Origin: Candidatus Vecturithrix granuli
Lineage (GTDB): Bacteria > Moduliflexota > Moduliflexia > Moduliflexales > Moduliflexaceae
NCBI GenBank assembly: GCA_000739535.1
Contig: DF820468.1
Span: 140,312-204,311, forward strand
Length of the DNA stretch: 64,000 bases
Reading direction: 5' to 3'
Positions within the stretch are counted from its first letter, which is position 1. Each line of letters starts with the position of its first letter. Positions 6,154-62,245 of the stretch are shown piece by piece. The notes under the pieces are model-generated. The model was given only the letters and a program-made list of their open reading frames with translations. It was not told where the DNA came from and did not search any database. Position numbers and translations under genes: made by a program.

Positions 6154-6978
6154 TTAATCAATGGCGCCCTGGGTGAGGCCGCGAATGAAATCGCGCTGGA
6201 AAATCAGGTACAGCACGATCATGGGGAAGGTGATGATCGTCACGCCGGTCATGATTTTGGGGATGTCAGAGAGGTATTTCCCCTGAAATTGAGCCAGTCC
6301 CAGGGGCAAAGGCATGAGCCTTGTACTTGAAATCAACACCAGGGGAAGCAAAAATTCATTCCAGGTCCAGATTGAGATAAAAATTCCGGCCGCGATAATC
6401 GCCGGTTTAGCAATTGGAACCAGGATTTTCCAGAGCACATCGCGGTCTGACGCTCCATCCACGACCGCAGCTTCCGCTAACGTTTTCGGAATTCCCTGGA
6501 AAAACGCCCGCAGCAGTAGCGCGCCAAAGGACGCGCTCATCCCGATTTGCGGCAGAATCAATGCCCAATAGGTATTGAGCAGGTTGAGGCGATTCATCAA
6601 ATCGTAGAGAGGAATCATGAAAAGTTCGGCCGGCAGAATGAAACCACCCAATAGCAGGTAAAAAAGCAGCGAACTCCCTCTAAATTGCATATTCGCAAAC
6701 GCATATCCGGCTAAAATCGAAAAGAGCAGCGAAATCACGACGACCGGTACCAAAACGATGACGCTATTCAGAAAATAGCGGCCAAATCCACTGTTAAGCC
6801 AGACATCCGAAAATTTTCCCCAATGCCATTGTTGCGGCAATTGCAGGGGGCCACCCAGAATCAAATCGCGTTGCGTCTTAAAGGCCGTCAACCAGGTCAG
6901 CGCAAAAGGGCCGACGGAAATAATCAGAAACACGATTAAAATTAGATACACGATCACGGATTTCAATGGTTTTTTCAT
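6154..6978 (-). CDS. sugar ABC transporter permease, MalG type
   Basis: A 274-residue inner-membrane protein with six predicted membrane helices, the first at residues 9-31. The EAA loop, EAAVVDGASDRDVLWKILVP, contacts the ATPase subunit. The family (CUT1) carries oligosaccharides, glycerol-phosphate or polyols into the cell together with a MalF-type permease, a binding protein and an MsmX/MalK ATPase. It overlaps the upstream permease gene by 4 bases (6975-6978). No ATPase gene lies nearby, so a shared ATPase is likely. The binding-protein gene of this system is damaged. Confidence 0.9.
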   Translation of the reverse strand: MKKPLKSVIVYLILIVFLIISVGPFALTWLTAFKTQRDLILGGPLQLPQQWHWGKFSDVWLNSGFGRYFLNSVIVLVPVVVISLLFSILAGYAFANMQFRGSSLLFYLLLGGFILPAELFMIPLYDLMNRLNLLNTYWALILPQIGMSASFGALLLRAFFQGIPKTLAEAAVVDGASDRDVLWKILVPIAKPAIIAAGIFISIWTWNEFLLPLVLISSTRLMPLPLGLAQFQGKYLSDIPKIMTGVTIITFPMIVLYLIFQRDFIRGLTQGAID

Positions 6979-7856
6979 AATCGTTCTTCGCGTACATGAA
7001 TCGTGATGATCACGACCAGGAAAATGAGCAAGGTTAACAAAACTGCAATCGAAGTCGCATAGCCCATACGATTATACTCAAAGGCGTTCTTGAACACATA
7101 GAGGGAAATCGGGAGGGTTGAGGTTCCCGGCCCGCCGTTGGTAGTGACATACACCACTGCAAACACCCGCAAAGCTCCGGTCAGGGTCATGACCAGACAG
7201 ACTGTAATTTCACGTTGCAGTTCCGGCAAGGTGATGTGCCAGAATTGCCGGATGGCATGAGCGCCGTCGAGTTTGGCGGCGTCGTACAAGGCTTCATCAA
7301 TTTTCTGCATGCCGGCCAGAAAGATGACCATACAAAAGCCATACCAGAGCCAGGCTCCGATTCCGCCGACCGCCATAATCGCGACGTCAAAATCTCCCAG
7401 CCAGGCGCGTCCCCATTGCCGAACGCCAATAATGGTCAGGAGGTTGTTCAATACCCCAAAGGCCGGATTATAAATCCAACTCCAGATGACACCGACCGCC
7501 ACTAAGGGCACAACCTGCGGCATAAACAACCCGACCCGGAACATATTGATCCCTTTTAGTCGTGAACGCCCGATTAAGGAAGCGAGCAGCAACCCTAAGG
7601 CCAAAGGAATCGCTGCGAAGAATAGCATAAAGATCAGGTTATTTTTCAGCGCAATCCACACCAGAGGATCATCAAACAGGGCTTTAGTGTAATTGGCAAA
7701 GCCGATAAAACGCGGGCGGCTTAATCCATCCCATTCGGTAAAGCTATACCAAAAACTCGCCAGAGACGGATAGAGCACAAATATCCCATAAGACAGCATT
7801 GCCGGAGCAATGTAGAAATAGGGTTTATACTTCAGACTTGCAGCCTGGGGTCTCAT
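6975..7856 (-). CDS. sugar ABC transporter permease, MalF/UgpA type
   Basis: A 293-residue membrane protein of CUT1 type with about six helices. The EAA-like loop reads DAAKLDGAHAIRQFWHITLP, and a typical VVYVTTNGGPG segment precedes the last helices. AAGGAAAG lies before the ATG at 7856. It pairs with the MalG-type permease that overlaps its 3' end. A terminator-like hairpin at 7977-8012 lies between it and the truncated binding-protein gene, which would have been transcribed first. Confidence 0.9.
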   Translation of the reverse strand: MRPQAASLKYKPYFYIAPAMLSYGIFVLYPSLASFWYSFTEWDGLSRPRFIGFANYTKALFDDPLVWIALKNNLIFMLFFAAIPLALGLLLASLIGRSRLKGINMFRVGLFMPQVVPLVAVGVIWSWIYNPAFGVLNNLLTIIGVRQWGRAWLGDFDVAIMAVGGIGAWLWYGFCMVIFLAGMQKIDEALYDAAKLDGAHAIRQFWHITLPELQREITVCLVMTLTGALRVFAVVYVTTNGGPGTSTLPISLYVFKNAFEYNRMGYATSIAVLLTLLIFLVVIITIHVREERL

Positions 7857-7976
7857 ACTTTCCTTTTAGTAGTCATGAATAAATTCTTTTAACTTTTCAT
7901 ATCATAAAAACACTTGTTTTCAGGCAATATTCAGAAATCCTTTTCCTATTCCTATGAGAAATCCTTGTAGTTACTT

Positions 7977-8012
7977 AAAAAAACCGGGTTTCTCGAAGAA
8001 ACCCGGTTTTTC
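7977..8012 (-). terminator. hairpin, family A repeat (AAACCGGGTTTC)
   Basis: A perfect 12-bp stem, 7981-7992 with 7998-8009, loop TCGAA. A-rich on the left and T-rich on the right, so it can end transcription on either strand; on the minus strand it follows the truncated binding-protein gene. The same hairpin sequence recurs at many gene ends in this window. Confidence 0.6.
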
Positions 8013-8022
8013 TGCCTGGATA

Positions 8023-9200
8023 TTACGGTTTTTCCTTCAGCCATTTCTCATAATCGGCCTGTAATTTCGCTGCAAATTCTTCAGGAGTCAGCTTAAACGC
8101 TAACATTTCCTGACTGGCGACGGCGAGGGTATCAAAAAACGTGGGAGTGGCCCAGTCGAGATAATGACCGACGGTGTTAGTTTCATTCACGTCATTCCAG
8201 GCTTTCATAATGTCATAATACAACGTACCTTCTTGAAGCATGGAGAGATCTACCGGTACGGCTCCGGGTAGAATTTCCGCCTCGACAAACATCTTCTGGG
8301 TTTTTTCTGAGAGCATGACATCATTCAAGAATTTGGCAGCCAAATCCGCATTTGCCGACGCCGCATTAATCCCATAAGGCGTTCGCACGCCGCCAACCTG
8401 CAAAGCCATGCCTTTAGCCGGATCAACGGGCGGGAACGGAAAGAAGCCGAATTCAAGCGGCGATTCGTTTAATACACCCATAATCCAGCTCCCGGCGATC
8501 ATCATCGCGCCTTTGCCAGCGGCAAACAACTGCACCGAGTCATCGTAGCCGATGCCTGCGAATCCCGGCGTAAAATACTCTTTTTTGACCCAGTCCTGTA
8601 TGATTTTCGCACCTTCGATAGTGGATTGGCTTTCCCAGCTGACGTCATCAGCCCAGTTCATAATCATTTTGTCGAGATATTCTCGTCCTTCATATTCGGA
8701 GATCAGGGCATGTTCGATTTCGCCATACACATGAAATACCGGCCAGCGATCCAGGTTGCCGAAGGTCAGGGGCGTCTCGCCAGCAGCTTTAATCTTTTCC
8801 AATGCAGCTTCAAATTCCGCTAAACTTTTGGGGACACTGACGCCGATCTTCTCGAAAATTTGTTTGTTATAAAACACTCCGACTATTTCCCCGGAGGAAG
8901 AAATAGCGTACAAATTACCCTTTCCGAATACCTTGCCATCGGCGGTATAGCGGTTGCGGGTCAATAAGTCCGGAGAGAACAAACGTTCTGTCCACCCATA
9001 TTGCTCAGCATAGGCATCGAGCGGCAGAAGATAGCCGCCGCGTACTAAAGGCCCCATCATGGTTTCGCCGTTGTTAGACAGAATCACATCAGCCCCTTTC
9101 CCGGAACGCACTGCGGTCATGACCGCTGCCTTCGTATCTTCCAACGGGCGGGTTGTGCGTTCGACCTGACAATTATTTTGCGCTTCGAAATATACACGCA
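8023..9200 (-). pseudogene. extracellular solute-binding protein, 5'-truncated
   Basis: The frame from about residue FEAQNNCQVER onward is a normal family-1 sugar-binding protein: EDTKAAVMTAVRSGKGADV, GGYLLPLDAYAEQYGW, then FYNKQIFEKIGV, to a Lys-rich end. Such proteins begin with a signal peptide and about 40 mature residues before this point; none is present. The frame can be extended to an ATG at 9249, but that part overlaps the response-regulator gene in another frame and is not binding-protein sequence. The protein could not be exported. The damage probably disables the transporter whose two permeases follow. Confidence 0.75.
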
Positions 9201-50180: not shown

Positions 50181-51575
50181 ATGAGCGATTATTCAGCCGC
50201 AGCATCAGGAATCGGGTATCTTCACCAGCAAATCATTTACAGCCTGTTCCTCATCTTGGATCGGCACGAACCGCATGTATCTATTCGAATAGAAGGGCTG
50301 GATGATATTGAAGTGTTGGAAAAAAGTACTCTGCGGGAATTATTACAAGTCAAACACCATCTAAACCTGAATTCATCATTATCAAATCGAAGTCTTGATC
50401 TCTGGAAAACAATAGGAATTTGGAGCGATTATGCAAAAAAGAATTGGATTGCTCTTCCTGACACCCGCCTAACTTTGCTGACCACGTCACACGTACCTGA
50501 AAATTCAATAGCCGCATTATTGCGTCCCGATTCCGGAAGAAACCCACAACGTGCTTGTCAACTGCTTCGAGAAGAAGCATCATCTTGTAAATTGACCAAG
50601 TCTGCCTTAGAAAAACTCATCCAAAAGGATATTCCTGCCCCTCTGATACAAATGTTAAAACGTGTTGAACATGTGAAATATCCTTCTGGAAAAGATTTAT
50701 GGGAAACCCTCAAACAGCAGAGCACCGGGATAGGCAATATTGAAAAATATCAGGAGTTGATTTTATCTCATGTCAAATCAAGTCGGGAATTGCAAAAAGC
50801 CTTTGATATGTTCATGAACCTTTCACTGGAACAGCAAGAGTGTCTGGTTGATTCTATCCACATTCTTGACTCTTCACCAAATATTACTGAGGTTATTCAA
50901 AAGATCGAAAATGCAATTCATGGGGTCAGTCTGGAATATCGCCAGGAAGTTCGACAGGAACTGCAAGGTTGGTGGCTCGATAGCGTTATTGAACATCTTT
51001 GCAATGGCTCAGAAGAAACGATACCGAAGATAATAGTTGAAAACCAGGCAGCATCCATCTGTCAAAAATATGCTGTGGAACTTCCTGAAGATTTTGAACC
51101 ATCTGAGACATTTGATCCCGGTTCAAAAGAATGGGAAAAGGAACGCTTCGTCCGGCAACTGCGGGCGATTGACACAAAAGAACCGTTGCGAAGGATGGCG
51201 ATTGCGTACCATCATCGCGCATTTGAGCAACGAACAAAATGGTGGAACAATGGTCGTATTACTTTTGAGCGAATAACCAAGTATGAACAGGAATTAACGG
51301 ATTTCTGGAAAGAACGTTATTACGATCTTGTTGATGAAACTGAAAATGAATATCAATCGCAATTGGAGGACTTAGATGAAGACGTTCTCAAAAAGTTCGG
51401 CAAAGCACTCTACAAACAAATACGGCGATGTGATAAAAAGATAAGCCCAAATATCACCGCAAATTATATGACACAGGGAAGTTACCAGATGTTGGCTAAT
51501 GAGCTAGGTGAAAAAAGGAAACCTCGTGTTTATTGGCATCCTAAATTTCCTGAACAAGATAACGAAACATGTTAA
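50181..51575 (+). CDS. ABC-3C system effector, PD-(D/E)XK nuclease-like N-terminus
   Basis: A 464-residue protein. Residues 1-90 read ASGIGYLHQQIIYSLFLILD, IRIEGLDDIEVL and LRELLQVKHHLN: Asp-42/Glu-44 and Gln56-Val-Lys58 match a restriction-endonuclease-fold core (D...(E/Q)xK). LWKTIGIWSDYAKKNW follows. The C-terminal part (residues 280-464) is predicted helical with the region FVRQLRAIDTKEPLRRMAI typical of ABC-three-component effectors. It is the first of three overlapping or touching genes with a middle component and an SMC-like ATPase. A DNA-cutting defence effector is inferred. Confidence 0.7.
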   Translation: MSDYSAAASGIGYLHQQIIYSLFLILDRHEPHVSIRIEGLDDIEVLEKSTLRELLQVKHHLNLNSSLSNRSLDLWKTIGIWSDYAKKNWIALPDTRLTLLTTSHVPENSIAALLRPDSGRNPQRACQLLREEASSCKLTKSALEKLIQKDIPAPLIQMLKRVEHVKYPSGKDLWETLKQQSTGIGNIEKYQELILSHVKSSRELQKAFDMFMNLSLEQQECLVDSIHILDSSPNITEVIQKIENAIHGVSLEYRQEVRQELQGWWLDSVIEHLCNGSEETIPKIIVENQAASICQKYAVELPEDFEPSETFDPGSKEWEKERFVRQLRAIDTKEPLRRMAIAYHHRAFEQRTKWWNNGRITFERITKYEQELTDFWKERYYDLVDETENEYQSQLEDLDEDVLKKFGKALYKQIRRCDKKISPNITANYMTQGSYQMLANELGEKRKPRVYWHPKFPEQDNETC

Positions 51576-52060
51576 ATTGGGAAGAACGTCCGTTTGAGAT
51601 TGCTAATCTTGTGAATCCGGCCTTTTGTTCTCTCTTGCTCCATATCTCGGTCGGAGATTTTTTCAAAGAGAAGAGGAATGGAATGCCCTATGCCTTGCTC
51701 TTTCTTATTTTCCCGCTGACGCTTCACGAGCCAACCCGCGAAGTACTTCCTTCTGATACCAGAACCCTTTTGACGGAATGGTTCAAGGAACAACCGGAAG
51801 AATTTGGGAAAATTTTTGCAGATCAGGTGCGTCAATTCGTGCCATACACTCGCGAAGCTGTGATATTTGGAATGCAGCGAAGTCTCTTTGATATTGACGA
51901 AAATGGCAATATCACTCATAATACCGGTCATTTAAACTCTGCCTATCAGATGAAATCGCCTGTTGTGGCAATCATGAATAGTGCAAGATTTGTTGGCCGG
52001 TGGTTTGCGAAATTAGAACATGAAAGCCTTATTTTTAAGGTATTTGGAATCTGCCCGTAA
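51569..52060 (+). CDS. ABC-3C system middle component
   Basis: A 163-residue protein starting MLNWEERPFEIANLVNPAFCS, then ALLFLIFPLTLHEPTREVLPSDTRTLLTEWF and FVPYTREAVIFGMQRSLFDI. RPxExANLxNPAF(C/G) at the start and the central LPLTLH-like segment are features of the ABC-3C middle component family. It overlaps the effector gene by 7 bases and is followed 2 bases later by the ATPase gene. It is thought to bridge effector and ATPase; no enzymatic motif is visible. Confidence 0.7.
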   Translation: MLNWEERPFEIANLVNPAFCSLLLHISVGDFFKEKRNGMPYALLFLIFPLTLHEPTREVLPSDTRTLLTEWFKEQPEEFGKIFADQVRQFVPYTREAVIFGMQRSLFDIDENGNITHNTGHLNSAYQMKSPVVAIMNSARFVGRWFAKLEHESLIFKVFGICP

Positions 52061-52062
52061 CT

Positions 52063-54096
52063 ATGCAAATAAAAGCAATCATTCTCTATAATGCTGTAGG
52101 AAAGAAACAGACGATCACCTTCAAAACCGGGGCGGTCAATATCATTACCGGAAAGGAAGATACCGGAAAATCCGCGATCATCCCGATTATTGAATATTGC
52201 CTCGGAAATTCAGAGTTTGAAGTTCCGGGAGAAATTATCCGGGCGACGGTGGCCTGGTATGCTGTTCTTTATCAAATTGATGATCTACAGGTGTTTATTG
52301 CGAAACGGGCGCCGGTAAATAGTACCTATCAAAACCAAATTTTTTACCAACAGGGAGTTGACCTTGTTATTCCTGAGCTTACACAACTGCACCCCAACTC
52401 AGATGACTTCACCGCAAAGCAGAAATTGTTGGAATTGTTGCATACATCCTCAAACACGGGAGCATTAGAAACGTCTGCATTACGCAGTTATATCGAGACC
52501 ACCATAGATCGGGCGATTTACTATCTTTTTCAAGATGAAGATACCATCACCAATAAGAAGATTTTGTTTCATAAACAAGACCCGATTATCAGCAGAACGC
52601 TGCCATATTTTCTTGGAGCGGTTGAGGAAGATTTCGCAAAACTGAATCAGGATTTAACCACTGCTCAACGTGAATTGGAAAGATATAAACGACAATATAA
52701 AGAGCGGCAGCAGATTATCAGCAAGACGATGAATGATGGGAAAAATCTTCTCGAAGAGGCAAAACACGTTGGGTTAATAAGTGCAGAACGTGCCCCGCAG
52801 GATATCAGCGAAATTATTTCAACCTTAAAAATCGCCATCCAGGAACCGTCTGAACCAGAAAATTTACCATTCCCCCGCTTGCTTGATGATGATCGTCTCC
52901 CCCAATTACAGCGAGAAATTGAAGAATTGATCCAGAAAGATCAAGAGTATGACGATGAGATCAACACCATCAACATGTATGCGCAAGACGAAGAAAATTA
53001 CACAGAAGCGGTCAATGAACATGTGGCGCGACTCGAGTCGATTAATTTGTTTGAACACCAGCAAACGGACTGGTTAGAATCCAATATCTGTCCGCTATGC
53101 TTATCCACATTGCAGCAAGAAATTCCTAAAGCCGCGTCAATCAATCATGCCTTGAAACAACTCCAGGAAAATTTGAATATTGTTGAGCGAAACAAACCGC
53201 GCTTGAATGTGTCCATTGAGCGTTTAAAAAGAGCACAAGAAGCTATCCGGCGACAGCTTCGCCAAAAAAGAAAGATACTCAACACAATCATTGATGAGCG
53301 CAATAAAAGGCAGGAATTGATGGAACAGATTGTTCATGCGGATAAACGAGTTTCCCGCGTGAGATCCAGAATAGAATACTATCTTGAAACCCTTGATCTT
53401 TCAGATCAGTTGACAATGCTGCAAAAACGAATTGCGGAAGCAGAACAACGGGTTGAAGAATACAAAAGACAACAAGAGGGGTATTCTTTACAAGTCAGTT
53501 TAAATTCTATTTTAGCAAGCATTAACCTCCAGATGACGAGCTGGGCGGAAACATTGGATTTGCAGCATAGCGGCAGTTTCTATCAGTTTGATTTGCATAA
53601 ATTGACCGTCTTCGTGGGTGAAGGACGCGATGTGACGCCGATGCAGAGGATGGGAGGGCATAAAAATGTCTTAGGCTGTCATATCATACTCTATCTTGCG
53701 TTACATCAGTATTTTATACGAAAACAACGTCCGATCCCTCATTTCCTCATTTTAGATCAGCCTGCCCAGGGATATTTCCCCTCACTTGAAACGTATAAAG
53801 AGGTTATGGAAGGCCGACAATCAGAGAGAGCAGATCCTGATTTTGCGGCTGTTCGGCGCATGTTTGATTTTCTATTTGATGTGTGTGAAGAGTTGAGTCC
53901 ACATTTTCAACTGATTATCCTGGAGCATGCGAATTTGAGCGATGCCCGCTTTCAAAATGTCATGGTTCAGGGTTGCCCGTGGACAGGGGAAGAAAAAAAT
54001 GCCCTGATACCCCAAAGTTGGATACCTCAACACTTGAGAAAGCGAGAACGGGAGGTAACAAGTGAACAGCAGATAACATTAGATGATTTGGAATGA
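52063..54096 (+). CDS. DUF3732 ABC/SMC-like ATPase of the ABC-3C system
   Basis: A 677-residue ATPase. Walker A is IITGKEDTGKSAIIPI (residues 30-37), followed by EYCLGNSEFEVPGEI, a DUF3732 hallmark. Residues 200-470 are coiled coil split by ICPLCLSTLQQ (Cys343, Cys346), a zinc-hook-like CxxC. The C-terminal ATPase half has TPMQRMGGHKNVLG (signature) and HFLILDQPAQGYFP (Walker B near 565). It resembles RecN/Rad50-type DNA-sensing ATPases. It would use ATP to detect foreign DNA and release the effector. Confidence 0.8.
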   Translation: MQIKAIILYNAVGKKQTITFKTGAVNIITGKEDTGKSAIIPIIEYCLGNSEFEVPGEIIRATVAWYAVLYQIDDLQVFIAKRAPVNSTYQNQIFYQQGVDLVIPELTQLHPNSDDFTAKQKLLELLHTSSNTGALETSALRSYIETTIDRAIYYLFQDEDTITNKKILFHKQDPIISRTLPYFLGAVEEDFAKLNQDLTTAQRELERYKRQYKERQQIISKTMNDGKNLLEEAKHVGLISAERAPQDISEIISTLKIAIQEPSEPENLPFPRLLDDDRLPQLQREIEELIQKDQEYDDEINTINMYAQDEENYTEAVNEHVARLESINLFEHQQTDWLESNICPLCLSTLQQEIPKAASINHALKQLQENLNIVERNKPRLNVSIERLKRAQEAIRRQLRQKRKILNTIIDERNKRQELMEQIVHADKRVSRVRSRIEYYLETLDLSDQLTMLQKRIAEAEQRVEEYKRQQEGYSLQVSLNSILASINLQMTSWAETLDLQHSGSFYQFDLHKLTVFVGEGRDVTPMQRMGGHKNVLGCHIILYLALHQYFIRKQRPIPHFLILDQPAQGYFPSLETYKEVMEGRQSERADPDFAAVRRMFDFLFDVCEELSPHFQLIILEHANLSDARFQNVMVQGCPWTGEEKNALIPQSWIPQHLRKREREVTSEQQITLDDLE

Positions 54097-54161
54097 ATGT
54101 CCAGCAAATGTCGTTGTTCATATTTAAACCACACAAAAATTTTTAACACGAGGTGTACATC

Positions 54162-54710
54162 ATGAAACTAACAAATGAAAACAGTATCGGCTTGTCAGAC
54201 TTTATCGAACAAATGAAAAGTGAGCTTCTAATTTTCTCATGTAAATTGGGAGACTCTTCTTTAGAAAGATTAGAGAAGGAAGGAGGACTTCCTGAAAACA
54301 TTTTGAAAAAATTACGCTCATTAAAAAATCAGAAGCTGAAAGTCTCGGAGCTTTTAGAGAAAGTAGGAGAAGATCTCTCTGATAAAGATAAGAAATTTAT
54401 TCTGAAAAACGTCCGAGATATACCATTGTTGGCAGTTGAGGAAATTGATCTTGAAATAAAAGCTGTCGTAAGCAAGGCTGAGGGTGGTGGGGCCGAATTG
54501 CGACTTCCTTTTCTTGAAGCCGGATTAAATAGCACTACAAACAAAGAGAGTATCCAAACAGCCCACGTGAAACTTAGACCGATTTTTACTGTAGAAGAAC
54601 TTCTAGAAGGAACTGATTCTGAGATTGTACAGCAAATGAAAGAAGAAGGAAAAGGATCGATACTTCGTAGCGGTAACTTATCGACATCACATAGTGGTGA
54701 GCTTGATTGA
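54162..54710 (+). CDS. trypco2 (trypsin-co-occurring) domain protein
   Basis: A 182-residue protein; ACGAGG before the ATG at 54162 favours that start over a GTG at 54153. The N-terminus (GLSDFIEQMKSELL) and, after a Lys-rich helical insert (residues 35-85), PLLAVEEIDLEIKAVVSKAEGGG and TAHVKLRPIF make up the trypco2 domain. This domain occurs with trypsin-like, CHAT, TIR and STAND genes in bacterial conflict systems, where it is thought to link sensor and effector. It lies 27 bases before the CHAT-STAND gene. Confidence 0.6.
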   Translation: MKLTNENSIGLSDFIEQMKSELLIFSCKLGDSSLERLEKEGGLPENILKKLRSLKNQKLKVSELLEKVGEDLSDKDKKFILKNVRDIPLLAVEEIDLEIKAVVSKAEGGGAELRLPFLEAGLNSTTNKESIQTAHVKLRPIFTVEELLEGTDSEIVQQMKEEGKGSILRSGNLSTSHSGELD

Positions 54711-54737
54711 TTTTAAGAGAAGAAAGGGAGTTGTTAT

Positions 54738-57700
54738 ATGAAAGAAATTTGGATAAGTATTGAACCTGTTCAGAATGAAAATAAATTGCAAATAAGGGTT
54801 GATGGAAGACAGGTTGATTCAGACTATCCAGAAGGACTTCCACTAGTAGAAACTCCCTTTAATCAAAAAGAATTAACAACTCTCTTTAAGGCGCTTCATC
54901 TTTTAGGAAAAGAAGAATTGCCATTTGAGCCGAAGGAATTAGAATTATTAAAGTCTTGGGAAGTTATGACTTTCCAAGAGAAGCAAAGTAATGAAATAAA
55001 GAAAAAATTAACAGAAAATGACATCAATATCGAAAAATTAGAACAATTTATCGGCGAGAGGGTAGAAACACTTTTTTTAGATGAAAATCACAAGCGTAAG
55101 TTACAGGAGGCATTACAACCATGTAATGAGATAATGCATATTAAATTAAAATTTCCTGTCAAAGGGGAATATATAGAGTCTTTATCTCAAATACCATGGG
55201 AAATTTTGAGCAAATCTGAATTATTCAAGAACTTTAATACGTGCATCTCTCGGTACCTTCAGTATAAACAAAATAGTATAGAACCAATAGAAGGAGAGAG
55301 CATAAATCTTTTAGTGATAACTTCTCGTCCTGCCAGTTTGAAAAATGATAACACTAGAGATTATAAAGAGATAGAAAAAATTGGAAAAGGAAAGAACAAA
55401 TTAATTAAGTGTTCAGAATTACCCAGCCCTGTCACCCGTACAAAGTTATTTAGCTATTTATGCCAGGTCAAAGGTTCAGCGGAATCTCCCCATATAATCC
55501 ATTTTGATGGTCACGGAAAGTTTGGGCGCCGTTGCCCTCAAAAAGCCTATATTACTGACGATCATAAGATTAACTCGTGTGAGAAGTTCTCAGAATGCAA
55601 GCTACAAGAGTGTAAGAAAAGAGGACAAACGTGGGAAGAGAAGCCTGTGGGCTGTTTAGCTTTTGAAACTGAAGGTGACAAAGGAACTGCTGACTGGGTT
55701 AGTGTTGATAAATTATCTTCTATCTTTAAAGAGAATAGCAGCATCCGTTTAGTTGTTCTCAACGCTTGTAGCACGGGTTTGTCTCGTCGTAACGATGATA
55801 TATTTAACGGAATTGCGCCTGGACTTAGGCAAATAATGATCCCCGCTGTTATTGGAACTCTTTTTCCTGTTTCTTCAGAAAAAGCTCAGAAATTTGCAAA
55901 AAATTTTTACTCTATATTAAATGAAGGAAAAACTCTTATTGAAGCAATGCATTTTGCTGTATCATCTTTGCAGATAGAAGAATTTTCAAGGGAATGGTAT
56001 CGATATATCCTTTATTTGCATACAAAAGAGAATGAAAGTGAAAATCTACTGAAATTACAAGGTTCTCTTACACCTCAGGATGCGGAAGAGGAGAAAGTTC
56101 CTGATAGAAAGCAAAAACTTGATGGTTTTGCAGAGATCTTTCAAAATAGAAGTGAGGAACGTAATGAACTAACTGAATTTTTTTATCCCAAACAAGATGA
56201 GGATCCACAACGTGCTAAAACGATGATAATTTCTGGTTTTCCTGGAATAGGAAAGAGTGCTTTAGCAGCCGATATTATAAGTAAAAATGATCCAAACAAG
56301 GAAAAGACGGTATACTTTCATAAAAATATTAATTTTGACATCGTATTTGACTGCTGCCTGAAAAGATTGGATCAAAAGGAAAGGGATGAACTTAGAGGAG
56401 CTTATGATGAACTAAAGAAAGAAAGAAGTATTGGGAAAAATACAACTGACCGAATCCATGGACTGGTGAAAAATTTTCTTTCTCAATTCAAGCAAAAGGG
56501 GGTTGTTGTAGTTTTGAATAATATGGAGGAATTGATTGAAAATGAAAAAATTAGAGATGAACACGAAGATCTAAAGATACTCATAGATGAAAGCCGTGAT
56601 CCAAACTATAATGTTAAGTTTCTGATAACTTCTTACAATAGAATTCTATCATATCAACCAGAGAAATATTTAAAGCCCCTTAATGACGAAGATTGTGTAA
56701 AAATTCTAAAAAAGAAACTCGAAGAAAAACAAGTGGTGCTAAACTTTCCAGATATCCCGAGTGATCAAGAACTCAAAGAGGTTGTGATACCAGTTTGTGG
56801 CATTCCACTTGCAATAGACCTTATTCTGTGGGGATTGGAATTGCACTGGACGTGGGAGAGGTTACGAGAGGTTCTAAAGAGTGAACCTCTGATTAAAGAG
56901 AATAGCTTTTATAAGAAATTGGAGGGGTATCATGACCTTGACAAGGATAAAGTGCAGGAAATAGAAAAAATCTTTACAAGACTTTTTGAAGGCTTACATA
57001 AAGATTTAAGTGAAGAACAGAAAAGGATATTGGAAATTCTAGCGGTGTTTGGGAACGCTTCTCCTGAAGCAATACATGATGTGTTACGGAATCTTAAATT
57101 GAAATTACCCGAGGAGAAGAGAAAAAATTACGCTGACGACTCGTTAACAGTAGAAAAGATTGAAAGCTATTTAAATAAACCCAATTGTAGGCCTTTTATC
57201 CAAAAAATTCAAAAAACTTTAAACCAGAGAGAATTTCGAAATGAACTCGCCCGGCAACATGTGTTGCATTTGCTCACTGAAGAGAAGGAGTATACCCGTA
57301 AGGATATGGAAGTTTGGTGCGGGAAATATTATCATTATGGGTTCGGGGAATATCATCATGATGAATGTATTAATGAGGAGCGTGTTACCTGGAAAAAGAA
57401 GTCTGATATCGAGCCATATTTAAAAGCTTCCGACCACTATATCAACGCAGAACATTATGAACAATTAGCAAACTGTTTATTTGCTAGCCATGGACCATTG
57501 AGATTTTTGATCGAACGAGGAGAGTATCGAGACATCATCAGGCTCTTTGGCAAAATCCCCAAAGAGAAAATGCCTGACAGGTGGGGAGGATCATTTTTGA
57601 TCTATTTAGGGATCGCTTATCTTTATAGCGGTAAATTAAGAGACGCAAAGGAAAAATTGGAAGAAACCCAAAAATATCCAGAATCAAAGGATAATATATT

Positions 57701-58574
57701 TCAAATCGAATATTATCAGAATTTAGGAAATTGTCTTGGTCAGTTAGGAGACATAGAAAAAGCAATAACAAATGTGAGCAAATCCTTAGGTATTATTGAA
57801 ACACTAGATGAACGCGAAAAAAAAGATTTCTCCAGGGAAAATCGAGGATTAGTCTATCACAGTTTAGGATATTGGTATGCTTTTAAAGATCTTAAAGAAG
57901 CTAGAGAATGGCTCAACAAAGCTAGGAAAGAATTTGATAATTCAACTAATTCAGATAAAGAGTATTACCATGCCTGTAGTCTTACCGTTCTTGGCGACAC
58001 TTTTCTTTATCAAGGGGAATTTGATACAGCGCTGAATAAATATAATGACGCTTGGAGTAGGCTGAAAGGAAAAAATTATAACCGGGCTCTCTATGATGTT
58101 AGGTGCGGTATGGCCTCTACTTATCTTATGTCTCAATCAATGGGCAAGAGGGTTGATATAGACGAAAAGGAGGCATTGGAGTTATTTAAAAAATATAAGA
58201 ACCCAAAACTCAGCCTAGATTTTGGAACGTACAAAGCTCATCTCCTTTTAGGAATGTTATATTTGAGACAAGATAATAGTATAAAAGCGAAAAAATCTTT
58301 CAAGATTGCTCTGAATTCTATCAAAGATTTGATAAAGGAAAATGAATGTTCCAACTCACAAACTGGATATGTAAATTTTGATGCCTATTTCTGCAAAATT
58401 TTGGCTGAATACGGCTTATTTTTATGCGGGGAAGAGAGCAAGTTTGATGCCAAAAGAAGTGCCAAAAGCGCCATGGAACTTTGGGGGAAAACCGGGATTA
58501 TCGAAAGAATGGAACAATTATTTAGAGTGTTTAACACCAAAGATTCCCTGAAAAGTCTTTCTCAAGAAGAGTAA
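54738..58574 (+). CDS. CHAT protease - STAND NTPase - TPR protein
   Basis: A 1278-residue protein. The CHAT caspase-like domain (residues about 130-430) has the catalytic His in PHIIHFDGHGKFG (H259 likely) and the Cys in VVLNACSTG (C344). The STAND/NACHT-like domain (about 470-760) has Walker A ISGFPGIGKSALA (near 500-510) and a Walker B-like GVVVVLNNMEEL (near 590). Residues 960-1260 are TPR-like helical repeats (LIYLGIAYLYSGKLRDA; YQNLGNCLGQLGDIEKA; SLTVLGDTFLYQGEFDTAL). GGGAG precedes the ATG. It fits a nucleotide-gated defence protease with TPR sensing. Strongly A+T-rich, unlike the host genes, suggesting transfer. Confidence 0.88.
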   Translation: MKEIWISIEPVQNENKLQIRVDGRQVDSDYPEGLPLVETPFNQKELTTLFKALHLLGKEELPFEPKELELLKSWEVMTFQEKQSNEIKKKLTENDINIEKLEQFIGERVETLFLDENHKRKLQEALQPCNEIMHIKLKFPVKGEYIESLSQIPWEILSKSELFKNFNTCISRYLQYKQNSIEPIEGESINLLVITSRPASLKNDNTRDYKEIEKIGKGKNKLIKCSELPSPVTRTKLFSYLCQVKGSAESPHIIHFDGHGKFGRRCPQKAYITDDHKINSCEKFSECKLQECKKRGQTWEEKPVGCLAFETEGDKGTADWVSVDKLSSIFKENSSIRLVVLNACSTGLSRRNDDIFNGIAPGLRQIMIPAVIGTLFPVSSEKAQKFAKNFYSILNEGKTLIEAMHFAVSSLQIEEFSREWYRYILYLHTKENESENLLKLQGSLTPQDAEEEKVPDRKQKLDGFAEIFQNRSEERNELTEFFYPKQDEDPQRAKTMIISGFPGIGKSALAADIISKNDPNKEKTVYFHKNINFDIVFDCCLKRLDQKERDELRGAYDELKKERSIGKNTTDRIHGLVKNFLSQFKQKGVVVVLNNMEELIENEKIRDEHEDLKILIDESRDPNYNVKFLITSYNRILSYQPEKYLKPLNDEDCVKILKKKLEEKQVVLNFPDIPSDQELKEVVIPVCGIPLAIDLILWGLELHWTWERLREVLKSEPLIKENSFYKKLEGYHDLDKDKVQEIEKIFTRLFEGLHKDLSEEQKRILEILAVFGNASPEAIHDVLRNLKLKLPEEKRKNYADDSLTVEKIESYLNKPNCRPFIQKIQKTLNQREFRNELARQHVLHLLTEEKEYTRKDMEVWCGKYYHYGFGEYHHDECINEERVTWKKKSDIEPYLKASDHYINAEHYEQLANCLFASHGPLRFLIERGEYRDIIRLFGKIPKEKMPDRWGGSFLIYLGIAYLYSGKLRDAKEKLEETQKYPESKDNIFQIEYYQNLGNCLGQLGDIEKAITNVSKSLGIIETLDEREKKDFSRENRGLVYHSLGYWYAFKDLKEAREWLNKARKEFDNSTNSDKEYYHACSLTVLGDTFLYQGEFDTALNKYNDAWSRLKGKNYNRALYDVRCGMASTYLMSQSMGKRVDIDEKEALELFKKYKNPKLSLDFGTYKAHLLLGMLYLRQDNSIKAKKSFKIALNSIKDLIKENECSNSQTGYVNFDAYFCKILAEYGLFLCGEESKFDAKRSAKSAMELWGKTGIIERMEQLFRVFNTKDSLKSLSQEE

Positions 58575-58581
58575 CAATCGC

Positions 58582-60273
58582 TTATCTCATTATCGTTTTG
58601 AGTATTTTGGCATGATTTGCAAGTTGATAGTGAATACAAGATTCATGTATATTATTGCAAACATGCTGATCATAATGCGGACAAAACATCTTCATGCTTG
58701 CAGGACAGGTTGATGATTCATGTTTAGTATTCATATCACATTCGATGGTGTTAAGTACTTTTTTGCTTTTCTGTCCGGTCTTCTTAGAACTCTTGACAGG
58801 TTTACGGGTAATACAAGCCCTGATAGCCTCATAGTGTTCATTACACTTATCTACTCCTATGGCTTTTTTGACAGCCTGTCTTAATTGTATATCTGTAAAT
58901 GTTTTGTCGTGCAACAATTCAATTTCGAGTTTTTTTACATCATCTTCAGAAAGAGTAGTTTTATTCCGAATTTTGACAAAATCTTCAGGTATAGGGGTAT
59001 AAATCGTGTCACTCTGTCCAGGTCGAGTACCTTCCCACCATCTCCGTTTTTTGACTTTCTGAAGCGAAACAAGGTGGTTTTTGAAATTGACGAGTCCGCT
59101 GCCCTGGGCGGTTTTGTGTTCTCCGAGATTGATGCTGCTGCGTTGGAGGGTTTGTTTGATCGCGGCAGGAGAATTTTGCGCTTTCCCTTTCGCATATTTG
59201 GACAACTGATGGAGTAAGGCAGCCATACCGCTGACGTGCGGGGCGGCCATGCTGGTGCCGGTCATGGTTGTATAACTTTTTCCGGGCTGGGGCGCGGTGA
59301 TCTTTTCTCCGGGCGCGACCAGATCGGGTTTATCAAACTGCCGCGTTGATCCGCGGCTGCTGTAGCTGGTGACAACCACCGGTTCTGTTTTGGTGGTGGC
59401 CCCGACGGTAATCACATCTTTGGCGTTGCCCGGACAACTAATCGTGCCTTCAGCCGGGCCGACATTGCCGGCCGCCACGACAACTGTTATTCCTTTGCTG
59501 ACTGCATAATCAGCGGTTTTACAAAGTGGGCAGGTTCCGTCGGTACAACTGTGATTATCGCCAAAACTCATGTTGATCACATCTACATTTTTCTTCACAG
59601 CCCAAAGGATGGCATCAATGATCGTATCTCTGGTGGTTGGGGTTTCGGAATTCATGAACACTTTGGCGTCGTACAGAGTGGTTTTGGGGGCGACGCCGAC
59701 ATAGCGGTAGCCGGAGGCTTTGCCTGATCCGGCAATGATGCCGGCCACATGGGTGCCGTGTTCGCGCCCTTTGGAGGCGCGGCCACCGCTGAAATTTTTA
59801 CTGGCTTGTACGCGCCAGCCAAATACACCGAAGTCCGGGTGACTTTTATCTATGCCGCTGTCAATCACAGCGACTTTCACGCCTTTGCCTTCCAATTTGT
59901 GACCTTTGACCCGATAGGGCAATTGCCATTTTTCGACGCCCATCACGAGCGGCACGCTTTCGTAGAGCGAGAGCTTGACATCTCCTTCGGCATCATAGAC
60001 TTTCTGGGCGCAGGAGACGGAGGCCAGGTCTTGCACTTTATCAACCGGCATTTCAGCGTAGATCGTGCTGATCTCTTTATAGACTTTGAGCTTTTTACCC
60101 CCTTTTTTCTTGATCTCCCGCTTCAATTCTTTCAGCGATTGGCTGCTGGCGGCTTCGATTAATGTACCGACCCGTTTCTTGCGGCCTCGCAGAAAACCGA
60201 TCAAGACCGGACGATCATAGCTGCTTTCCGCGCTCTGCACTTTTGCTAATAAGGATGCCTCAATTTCCGCCAT
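58582..60273 (-). CDS. subtilisin-like serine protease with Cys-rich C-terminal tail
   Basis: A 563-residue S8 peptidase. Catalytic Asp138 lies in VAVIDSGIDKSHPDFG, His172 in GREHGTHVAGIIAGSG and Ser341 in TGTSMAAPHVSGMAALL. Residues 1-110 resemble an inhibitor_I9-type prodomain. No signal peptide is seen, so it is probably intracellular. After residue 400 come helical segments, and the end carries STCPASMKMFCPHYDQHVC, NNIHESCIHYQLA, a Cys/His cluster also found in the small membrane protein at 61.3 kb. A palindrome lies just before the ATG at 60273; no ribosome site is visible. Confidence 0.88.
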   Translation of the reverse strand: MAEIEASLLAKVQSAESSYDRPVLIGFLRGRKKRVGTLIEAASSQSLKELKREIKKKGGKKLKVYKEISTIYAEMPVDKVQDLASVSCAQKVYDAEGDVKLSLYESVPLVMGVEKWQLPYRVKGHKLEGKGVKVAVIDSGIDKSHPDFGVFGWRVQASKNFSGGRASKGREHGTHVAGIIAGSGKASGYRYVGVAPKTTLYDAKVFMNSETPTTRDTIIDAILWAVKKNVDVINMSFGDNHSCTDGTCPLCKTADYAVSKGITVVVAAGNVGPAEGTISCPGNAKDVITVGATTKTEPVVVTSYSSRGSTRQFDKPDLVAPGEKITAPQPGKSYTTMTGTSMAAPHVSGMAALLHQLSKYAKGKAQNSPAAIKQTLQRSSINLGEHKTAQGSGLVNFKNHLVSLQKVKKRRWWEGTRPGQSDTIYTPIPEDFVKIRNKTTLSEDDVKKLEIELLHDKTFTDIQLRQAVKKAIGVDKCNEHYEAIRACITRKPVKSSKKTGQKSKKVLNTIECDMNTKHESSTCPASMKMFCPHYDQHVCNNIHESCIHYQLANHAKILKTIMR

Positions 60274-60284
60274 GTTTTTATCTT

Positions 60285-60510
60285 GCCCACGGAACACACG
60301 GAAAGACACGAAAAATGTCTTATTCTTCCGTGTCTTTCCGTGTGTTCTGTGGGCGTCTTCAATCTTCCTACCCGAACACGTTCAGGATGCCACACTCGGC
60401 ACTTTCGCTAACAACAATCTCCGCCATGTTTTCATTTTGCCCACGGAACACACGGAAAGACACGGAAAAAATCCTCTGTTCTTTCGTGTCTTTCCGTGTG
60501 TTCCGTGGGC
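60285..60510. repeat. duplicated palindrome block between protease genes (family E)
   Basis: Two copies of a palindrome, GCCCACGGAACACACGGAAAG paired with its complement (60285-60354 and 60439-60510), lie about 155 bases apart. Flanking gene-end sequence is duplicated too: GAACACGTTCA(G/A)(G/A)ATGCC from the membrane-protease 3' end and ATTTCCGCCATG/ATCTCCGCCATG from the subtilisin 5' end. The junction encodes a 19-codon chimeric ORF on the minus strand (about 60372-60428): MAEIVVSESAECGILNVFG. Confidence 0.8.
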
Positions 60511-60523
60511 ATCTTAGATCTTC

Positions 60524-61177
60524 CTATCCGAACACGTTCAAAATGCCGTTGAGTAAGAAGCCGGGTACGGTGTCGAAGCCATACAGCACCACGACCAGGG
60601 CAATGCCGAAAAAGACGATATTGCCGAGCAACACAAAAGCGGTGGAAAAATATTCCCCATGCCGTTGAATATCTGCCTGATGAAAGCCGAATTCCAGAAA
60701 GGTGGTAAACAGATGGTACATTGCCGTAAATCCGACGATAAAGAAAAATAAGGGCTGCATACGTTCGCCCAGTAAGGGATAGACCAGAAACGCCAGTAAA
60801 GTAAGCGTGGGGATATAATAGGGCGCCAGACTGAAAAACACGCTGATGATGCGCGTCACAAATCCACGCCCTTCCACGCCGACCACGACCTGCCCTTCGA
60901 CATGCTTGCGCGGCGAGACCTGAAAGTGCAGGGTTTTCAGGCAAAAGAGTTTGGCTATCATCACGTGCGTCAATTCATGTTCAAACACGGAGAAGGCGTA
61001 CATAAAGCGTTTCTTAAACAACCGCCAGAACACCAGAAAACTCAGGCCGCCGTACAGAAAAAGTTTTATAGATGTCGGAAATTTCATAATTTCAAGCGAC
61101 AGACCGAAAATTTCCACCATATACCCGATCGAGAGCAAGAGCAGAAAACCAACCAAAAAAAGCCGTAAGAGTTTCAT
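60524..61177 (-). CDS. M50-like membrane metalloprotease
   Basis: A 217-residue membrane protein with five or six helices. FSVFEHELTHVMIAKLFCL holds the HExxH zinc site (H67, E68, H71) next to a helix; SLAPYYIPTL and FHQADIQRHGEYFS occur later, the latter with an Asp as a possible third ligand. The small size and layout fit M50B-like intramembrane proteases. Weak ribosome site; a 30-bp palindrome precedes it. It lies between the subtilisin and the FCPHY membrane protein on one strand, so a proteolytic cascade is possible. Confidence 0.7.
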   Translation of the reverse strand: MKLLRLFLVGFLLLLSIGYMVEIFGLSLEIMKFPTSIKLFLYGGLSFLVFWRLFKKRFMYAFSVFEHELTHVMIAKLFCLKTLHFQVSPRKHVEGQVVVGVEGRGFVTRIISVFFSLAPYYIPTLTLLAFLVYPLLGERMQPLFFFIVGFTAMYHLFTTFLEFGFHQADIQRHGEYFSTAFVLLGNIVFFGIALVVVLYGFDTVPGFLLNGILNVFG

Positions 61178-61196
61178 TGTAGTACTAAAAGATACT

Positions 61197-61273
61197 TTTT
61201 GCCACAGAGCCACAGAGAACACAGAGATTCACTTGTATTTCTTCTCTGTGTTCTCTGTGGCTCTGTGGCAAAA
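61197..61273. repeat. perfect 30-bp-arm palindrome before the M50-like gene
   Basis: TTTTGCCACAGAGCCACAGA and on (61197-61226) is the exact reverse complement of 61244-61273, with a 17-base loop. It lies 20 bases upstream of the M50-like start codon (61177) and 35 bases after the stop of the next gene upstream (61308). Confidence 0.85.
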
Positions 61274-61307
61274 TCATAAAAAGTCTGTAGTTTCACAATC
61301 CTTTTCG

Positions 61308-61709
61308 TTACCCCATATAAATCAACGCGGCGGCGGCGGAAATCAACAGAAAAAACAGGAACGCCGCCAGCCTGCCTTTGCGCTTGTTTCGAATAATCGT
61401 CGCTGGATCAATCTGCATATCCGGGTTTTTATCGCGTAACACGTCGTTAATCTGAGCGATAAATGCCAGGTTCTGTGGCGTGGGATCTTTCAGCAATTTC
61501 TCGCGTTCGGCCCGCAAAATTGTTTCGGACGTTTTGAGAGAATTTAATAATACACACTCGCTATACTTGACATCACAGACCTGACTTGTATAATGCGGAC
61601 AAAAACGTTGCAGCCCGGGACAAATTTTTTCGTCTGTCCGCAACAGAGCTTCTTCTCCTGTGAATACAGGAATATCCAGGGGATTGAGTTCGTACAATAT
61701 TTCATCCAT
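61308..61709 (-). CDS. small membrane-anchored protein with FCPHY cysteine motif
   Basis: A 133-residue protein. The N-terminal part (MDEILYELNPLDIPVF) leads to EKICPGLQRFCPHYTSQVC then DVKYSECVLLNSLKTSE, a Cys/His cluster with spacing close to the tail of the subtilisin gene two places on. A basic stretch (RNKRKGRLA) and one C-terminal helix (AFLFFLLISAAAALIYMG) anchor it in the membrane with the cluster in the cytoplasm. The likely role is metal binding or docking with the protease. No named family. The ATG at 61709 has a weak GGAAG. Confidence 0.6.
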   Translation of the reverse strand: MDEILYELNPLDIPVFTGEEALLRTDEKICPGLQRFCPHYTSQVCDVKYSECVLLNSLKTSETILRAEREKLLKDPTPQNLAFIAQINDVLRDKNPDMQIDPATIIRNKRKGRLAAFLFFLLISAAAALIYMG

Positions 61710-61837: not shown

Positions 61838-62245
61838 ATGAAAATAGGAATTATTTATGTAGCGCAGCCACGCCAATTAGAACAGACCGCCAAAACCTTA
61901 GGACGAACTCTTGAAAAAAAAGGCCATCAGGTTGAATATCTGACGGTGGGAACCCGGGATCGCGCTACGAATTTGCGCAAATACGATTATATCTATCTTG
62001 GGAGTGTGGCCGAAGGTTTCTTTGGCGGCAAAATCCCTGAACCAGTCAAAGATTATGTCAAACAGTGCCGCGGGCTGGAAAACTCGAAGTCAGCGGCCTT
62101 TCTCCTGAAACGTTTCTTTGGCAACACCAAAGGCATGAAGCGTTTGATGGCGGTACTGGAGAGTATGGGATCGCAGGTGCTCGATTTTCAGGTGATCGGT
62201 GGCAATTCCGATATCGAGGCATTAGTAAACAGGCTGCGAGGGTAA
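61838..62245 (+). CDS. flavodoxin-like protein
   Basis: A 135-residue protein. MKIGIIYVAQPRQLEQTAKT gives the first strand and a phosphate loop-like region, though without a clear T-G-x-T; YDYIYLGSVAEGFFGGKIPEP and KSAAFLLKRFFG follow the flavodoxin/FldA fold. FMN binding is plausible but the loop sequence departs from the consensus, so it may be a non-flavin member. CGGAGGTGAA lies before the ATG; another ATG at 61831 is out of frame. Confidence 0.6.
   Translation: MKIGIIYVAQPRQLEQTAKTLGRTLEKKGHQVEYLTVGTRDRATNLRKYDYIYLGSVAEGFFGGKIPEPVKDYVKQCRGLENSKSAAFLLKRFFGNTKGMKRLMAVLESMGSQVLDFQVIGGNSDIEALVNRLRG

Follow-up and report, generated by a model that had tools for sequence, protein, structure and literature searches.

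The window analyzed here is the whole 64,000-nucleotide stretch of contig DF820468.1 from Candidatus Vecturithrix granuli (positions 140,312 to 204,311). It carries three minus-strand open reading frames, which encode, in order, the small protein, the M50-like protein, and the subtilase, and the S8 protease gene and the gene for a small membrane protein thus lie on one strand around an HExxH membrane protease, just as the original prediction had described. The features of the locus, in window coordinates unless the contig is named, are as follows.

58582..60273, minus strand: subtilase (S8) of 563 amino acids without a signal peptide, with an N-terminal region, a catalytic domain (D138/H172/S341), a variable linker, and a C-terminal four-cysteine module
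58636..58707 (contig 198947-199018), minus strand: four-cysteine module of the subtilase tail, CPASMKMFCPHYDQHVCNNIHESC
60524..61177, minus strand: M50-like metalloprotease of 217 amino acids with multiple transmembrane segments, HELTH at residues 67-71, and conserved H155 and D169 (QxD)
61308..61709, minus strand: small protein of 133 amino acids, with a four-cysteine module at residues 30-52, a helical middle, and a single C-terminal transmembrane segment (114-132) with basic residues ahead of it
61554..61622 (contig 201865-201933), minus strand: four-cysteine module of the small protein, CPGLQRFCPHYTSQVCDVKYSEC
61838..62245, plus strand: divergently transcribed gene for a weakly flavodoxin-like protein of 135 amino acids, with a 57% orthologue at the equivalent place in KSB3 bacterium DOLJORAL78_50_49

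Translation of the subtilase most likely starts at the ATG at 60273 (563 amino acids), because the GTG of the alternative 575-residue frame sits inside a palindromic repeat. The likely starts of the M50-like protein and the small protein are the ATG codons at 61177 (217 amino acids) and 61709 (133 amino acids), respectively. Perfect or near-perfect palindromes with arms of 29-33 bp occupy the intergenic gaps (60261-60547 and 61197-61273), and the gap between the M50-like and subtilase genes contains a tandem duplication of ~156 bp that includes two of them. The 25-bp core of the palindrome occurs eight times in the V. granuli genome, with four copies at the trio locus, and has no copy in the other KSB3 genomes.

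A conserved block in two genera

Four KSB3 genomes were compared, two of one family and two of another. The three genes are present, with their order kept, in KSB3 bacterium DOLJORAL78_50_49 (PDSJ01000013.1), a member of a second genus of the same family as V. granuli, and the search for the trio in other genomes that had been proposed as a check was therefore successful. Its orthologues are 62-63% identical for the small protein, 66-67% identical for the M50-like protein, and 68% identical for the subtilase over amino acids 10-422 of the 575-residue frame, which span the N-terminal and catalytic parts. The intergenic gaps in this second genome measure only 53 and 79 bp, and they therefore suggest that the trio forms one operon there. 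Neither of the two genomes of the other family yielded the module, the M50-like gene, or the flavodoxin-like gene, and their subtilases are distant ones only. The trio was seen in two genera of one family only.

The outer neighbors in the window encode a CHAT protein and a HEPN/nucleotidyltransferase, whereas those in DOLJORAL78_50_49, named by reading their sequences, are phosphoglucomutase-like and FecR/OmpA-like genes. Because these outer neighbors differ between the two genomes, the trio and the weakly flavodoxin-like gene, whose product matches Pfam Flavodoxin_1 only at E 0.13, constitute a conserved block of four genes.

Several defense-like genes lie near the block in the window. Three genes at 50181-54096 match LmuA, LmuC, and LmuB of the Lamassu or three-component ABC type of defense (LmuB, E 1e-124). 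They are followed at 54153-58574 by genes for a Trypco2-domain protein (PF19631, E 2e-14) and then a CHAT-NTPase-TPR protein, which are convergent with the subtilase gene and likely form a conflict-system pair. A defense function was set aside as the main reading because neither the Lamassu-like genes nor the CHAT/Trypco2 pair is kept around the block in DOLJORAL78_50_49.

Numerous proteases are reported in the KSB3 genome paper (PMC4312070), in whose main text the words "subtilisin" and "metalloprotease" do not appear. Our literature search found no paper on a trio of this kind.

The two proteases

The larger protease is an S8 subtilase by both its profile score (PF00082, E 2.7e-57, 194.7 bits vs a cut-off of 21.8) and its catalytic residues, with D138, H172, and S341 conserved in the subtilases of both genomes. 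Its best match in the Protein Data Bank (PDB) is 3afg, and further matches are to subtilisins and to the intracellular serine proteases 7xr8 and 7y6m. The N-terminal region may be a prodomain. Pro-subtilisin E (3whi) aligns from residue 50 onward; this region has no match to the Pfam inhibitor I9 family, and its structure model is of low confidence. Neither of the two subtilases has a signal peptide, a transmembrane segment, or a hydrophobic stretch. The DOLJORAL78_50_49 enzyme (locus 6611-9151) is longer, at 846 amino acids, and its catalytic domain is followed by HCPVSVSMFCPNDRGDACRSSYTNC and then by CarboxypepD_reg-like and matrixin-like domains, such that a single chain lacking a signal peptide combines two protease types.

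The M50-like protein of the window scores below the curated cut-off of the Pfam M50B family (PF13398, E 0.0009, 19.5 bits vs 26). It has several hydrophobic segments and the sequence HELTH, and the HExxH motif is invariant across 20 family members, as are, in full, H67, E68, H71, P119, Y120 (the PY of LAPY), H155, and D169. The aligned relatives are 22-31% identical, and 15 of the 20 match PF13398 at E <= 0.01. A hidden Markov model (HMM) built from the two copies found relatives in 30 further genomes of the 289 sampled (E <= 0.01), the weakest of which may be noise. The protein is therefore a member of a widespread family of its own near Pfam M50B. This unnamed family (~220 amino acids with HExxH, LAPY, and QxD) occurs in some 10% of the sampled genomes, near or below the M50B cut-off. 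The canonical distal (N/L)-(P)-DG motif of M50/site-2 proteases is absent, and D169 within QxD is the likely third ligand on the basis of its invariance. A sequence search turned up no relative of known structure. Among the matches listed, the ~1.5 kb on either side of the relatives' genes revealed no conspicuous subtilase or small cysteine protein, and hence the role of the M50-like protein need not be tied to such partners.

The four-cysteine module

The sharing of a cysteine motif by the subtilase tail and the small protein, which was the central observation of the original prediction, was confirmed in several ways. When the subtilase tail was used in a tblastn search of the 8.4-Mb genome, the only matches were itself and the small protein, encoded two genes away (E 0.002), and DNA encoding FCPHY was found at only two sites in this genome, again in these two genes, which are identical over a 15-base stretch of the module. 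None of 5000 shuffles of the window tail reached the real score, and the same result (0/5000) was obtained when the cysteines were held fixed. For the more diverged tail of the DOLJORAL78_50_49 subtilase, 1-4 of 5000 shuffles did so, or 32-56 of 5000 with fixed cysteines. The similarity of the two window modules is thus beyond chance, and the pair is unique to these genes within the 8.4-Mb genome.

The motif had been proposed in a stricter form, C-P-x(4-5)-F-C-P-H-Y-x3-V-C-x6-C, of which the H, Y, and V are not conserved in the subtilase tail of the second genome (CPVSVSMFCPNDRGDACRSSYTNC). The core common to both modules and both genomes is CP-x(4,5)-FCP-x6-C-x6-C, with the cysteines spaced as C-x6/7-C-x7-C-x6-C. 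Because this spacing includes no CxxC or CxxxC pair, a zinc knuckle or zinc ribbon of the CxxC type was rejected, and the common unrelated zinc knuckle that had been named as grounds for abandoning the proposal did not materialize. Profile and sequence searches returned no Pfam, NCBIfam, or PDB family match for the module; its best PDB match is insignificant (E 0.18).

Our pattern scan covered 385 genomes, 383 besides the two that carry the trio. In these 383, the DNA pattern for the core had six matches vs four for a reversed control, and none of the six is in a convincing gene, as several are out of frame and the rest fall in frames that are short or implausible. When 289 genomes were searched with an HMM built from the four module copies, only noise was obtained outside KSB3. 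Nothing was found in 10 genomes from the small phyla to which the best M50-like relatives belong, and there was likewise no match in viral contigs or in collections of phages and plasmids. The scan of GTDB r220 employed two peptide patterns only, and it detects close relatives only. AlphaFold models from two-sequence alignments (mean pLDDT 54 and 34), whose low confidence stems from the few relatives available for alignment, have similar predicted helices in both modules and no usable fold.

Within the small protein, the module evolves most slowly: between genera, segment 29-80 has 90% identity and a dN of 0.087, vs 26% and 51% identity and dN values of 0.73 and 0.40 on either side. The subtilase is only 31-38% identical after residue 400, yet it retains all four cysteines along with the FC and both prolines. 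Because synonymous differences are near saturation, this constraint pattern reflects selection on the protein, and the cysteines are selectively conserved.

Both small proteins have one transmembrane segment at the C terminus; that of the window protein is preceded by basic residues, and this protein is therefore predicted to be tail-anchored with the N terminus inside. Because the subtilase lacks a hydrophobic stretch and the transmembrane segment of the small protein lies at its very end, both modules are predicted to face the cytosol, and the idea of a cytosolic subtilisin alongside a small membrane protein agrees with these features. The CarboxypepD_reg and matrixin-like domains of the second subtilase are of kinds that are often extracellular; they make the compartment less certain and count against the explanation given below.

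A possible membrane-linked proteolysis unit

The four-gene block suggests a membrane-linked proteolysis unit of an undescribed type as its predicted function. In the explanation that we favor, to which as a whole we would tentatively give somewhat less than an even chance, a shared module unites an anchor, a cytosolic subtilase, and an M50-like enzyme that cuts the anchor. The small tail-anchored protein would display its four-cysteine module at the cytosolic side of the membrane, the subtilase carries a like module at its C terminus, and both modules would most likely bind one common ligand, be it a metal ion, an Fe-S cluster, or a redox partner. By pairing or competing, the modules would hold the subtilase at the membrane or release it, and the M50-like enzyme would probably cut the transmembrane segment of the anchor and thereby switch this holding or release off. 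That the subtilase is specifically recruited to the tail-anchored protein through a metal- or redox-sensing module, with release of the anchor by the M50-type protease, we consider unlikely when taken together.

Docking through the shared module would fit the above-chance homology of a module unique to these genes, the four-gene synteny in two genera with different outer neighbors, and the persistence of CP..FCP..C..C in a diverged subtilase tail, together with the slow change of the module relative to the rest of the small protein. The original interpretation of the module as one for oligomerization or docking is supported in part, with either role being putative. The same explanation draws on the topology of both protein pairs and on the HExxH and invariant D169 of the M50-like family. 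Against it stand the carriers, which are two genomes of one family, and the low-confidence structure models, which do not reveal clustering of the cysteines.

A doubtful but possible alternative is that a metal- or redox-binding module is used separately by two proteins that do not touch, both for one signal, with the cysteines switching the subtilase while the small protein reports to the membrane. Retention of the four cysteines while intervening residues change is consistent with this arrangement, as is the presence of the weakly flavodoxin-like gene in the block, but by itself it does not explain the conserved order around a membrane protease. That order of anchor, M50-like protein, and subtilase in both genomes also speaks for the small protein being a ready-made substrate of the M50-like enzyme, which would require no first cut because it has one transmembrane segment, its N terminus inside, and almost nothing outside, and whose freed cysteine domain would activate or inhibit the subtilase by competing with its tail. 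The small protein is comparable in topology and size to trimmed site-2 protease substrates. However, its cleavage is conjectural and the M50-like family was seen elsewhere without such a protein alongside, and we regard this possibility as quite unlikely.

The subtilase could instead have copied the module from a neighboring gene, with no present functional link and a tail that now serves, for example, stability only. The genes are near neighbors and share the identical 15-base stretch, but the cysteines persist in both genera although the tail diverges fast, and the block has been kept together, which renders this origin very unlikely as the full explanation. That the similarity is due to chance, or that the module is a common zinc knuckle, is extremely improbable despite the shortness of the pattern, as this reading is contradicted by the shuffles of the window pair, by the occurrence of the pattern twice in both genomes with control-level counts elsewhere, by the cysteine spacing, and by the database searches.

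If the favored explanation is true, then the block would exemplify a simple means by which bacteria attach a soluble subtilase to the membrane: one module is common to the enzyme and its anchor, and the anchor can be cut by a membrane protease. If duplication is the only link, then the block is an oddity within one family of an uncultured phylum. The locus also brings to light a small cysteine module that matches no Pfam family, along with a widespread M50-like family that has no name.

Among known systems, the IetAS anti-phage system resembles the locus through its subtilase, IetS (PADLOC, E 9e-17). Membership was rejected because the NCBIfam score is 51.9 bits vs a cut-off of 900 and the conserved block lacks an IetA-like gene. 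The subtilase of the block comes closest to the Tk-SP-like and intracellular subtilases (S8, PF00082) in its intact Asp/His/Ser catalytic domain and lack of a signal peptide, but differs from known subtilases in its four-cysteine C-terminal module and, in DOLJORAL78_50_49, in the CarboxypepD_reg and matrixin-like domains. Likewise, the M50-like protein shares with site-2 proteases and PF13398 its multiple transmembrane segments, HExxH, and a more C-terminal invariant Asp; however, the window protein falls below the cut-off, this Asp lies in QxD instead of a distal DG, and the family is one of its own across many lineages.

Site-1/site-2 proteolysis relies on a subtilase together with an M50 enzyme and a single-transmembrane substrate; S1P is itself a subtilase, RseP and RasP are bacterial examples, and the first enzyme acts on the luminal or outer side. 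S1P is a zymogen serine protease (PMC11231238). The KSB3 locus resembles such regulated intramembrane proteolysis in combining a subtilase, an M50-type protease, and a single-transmembrane protein with its N terminus inside, with cleavage here being putative. It differs in that the KSB3 subtilase appears to be cytosolic, the anchor has almost no outside part, and the enzyme and anchor share a domain.
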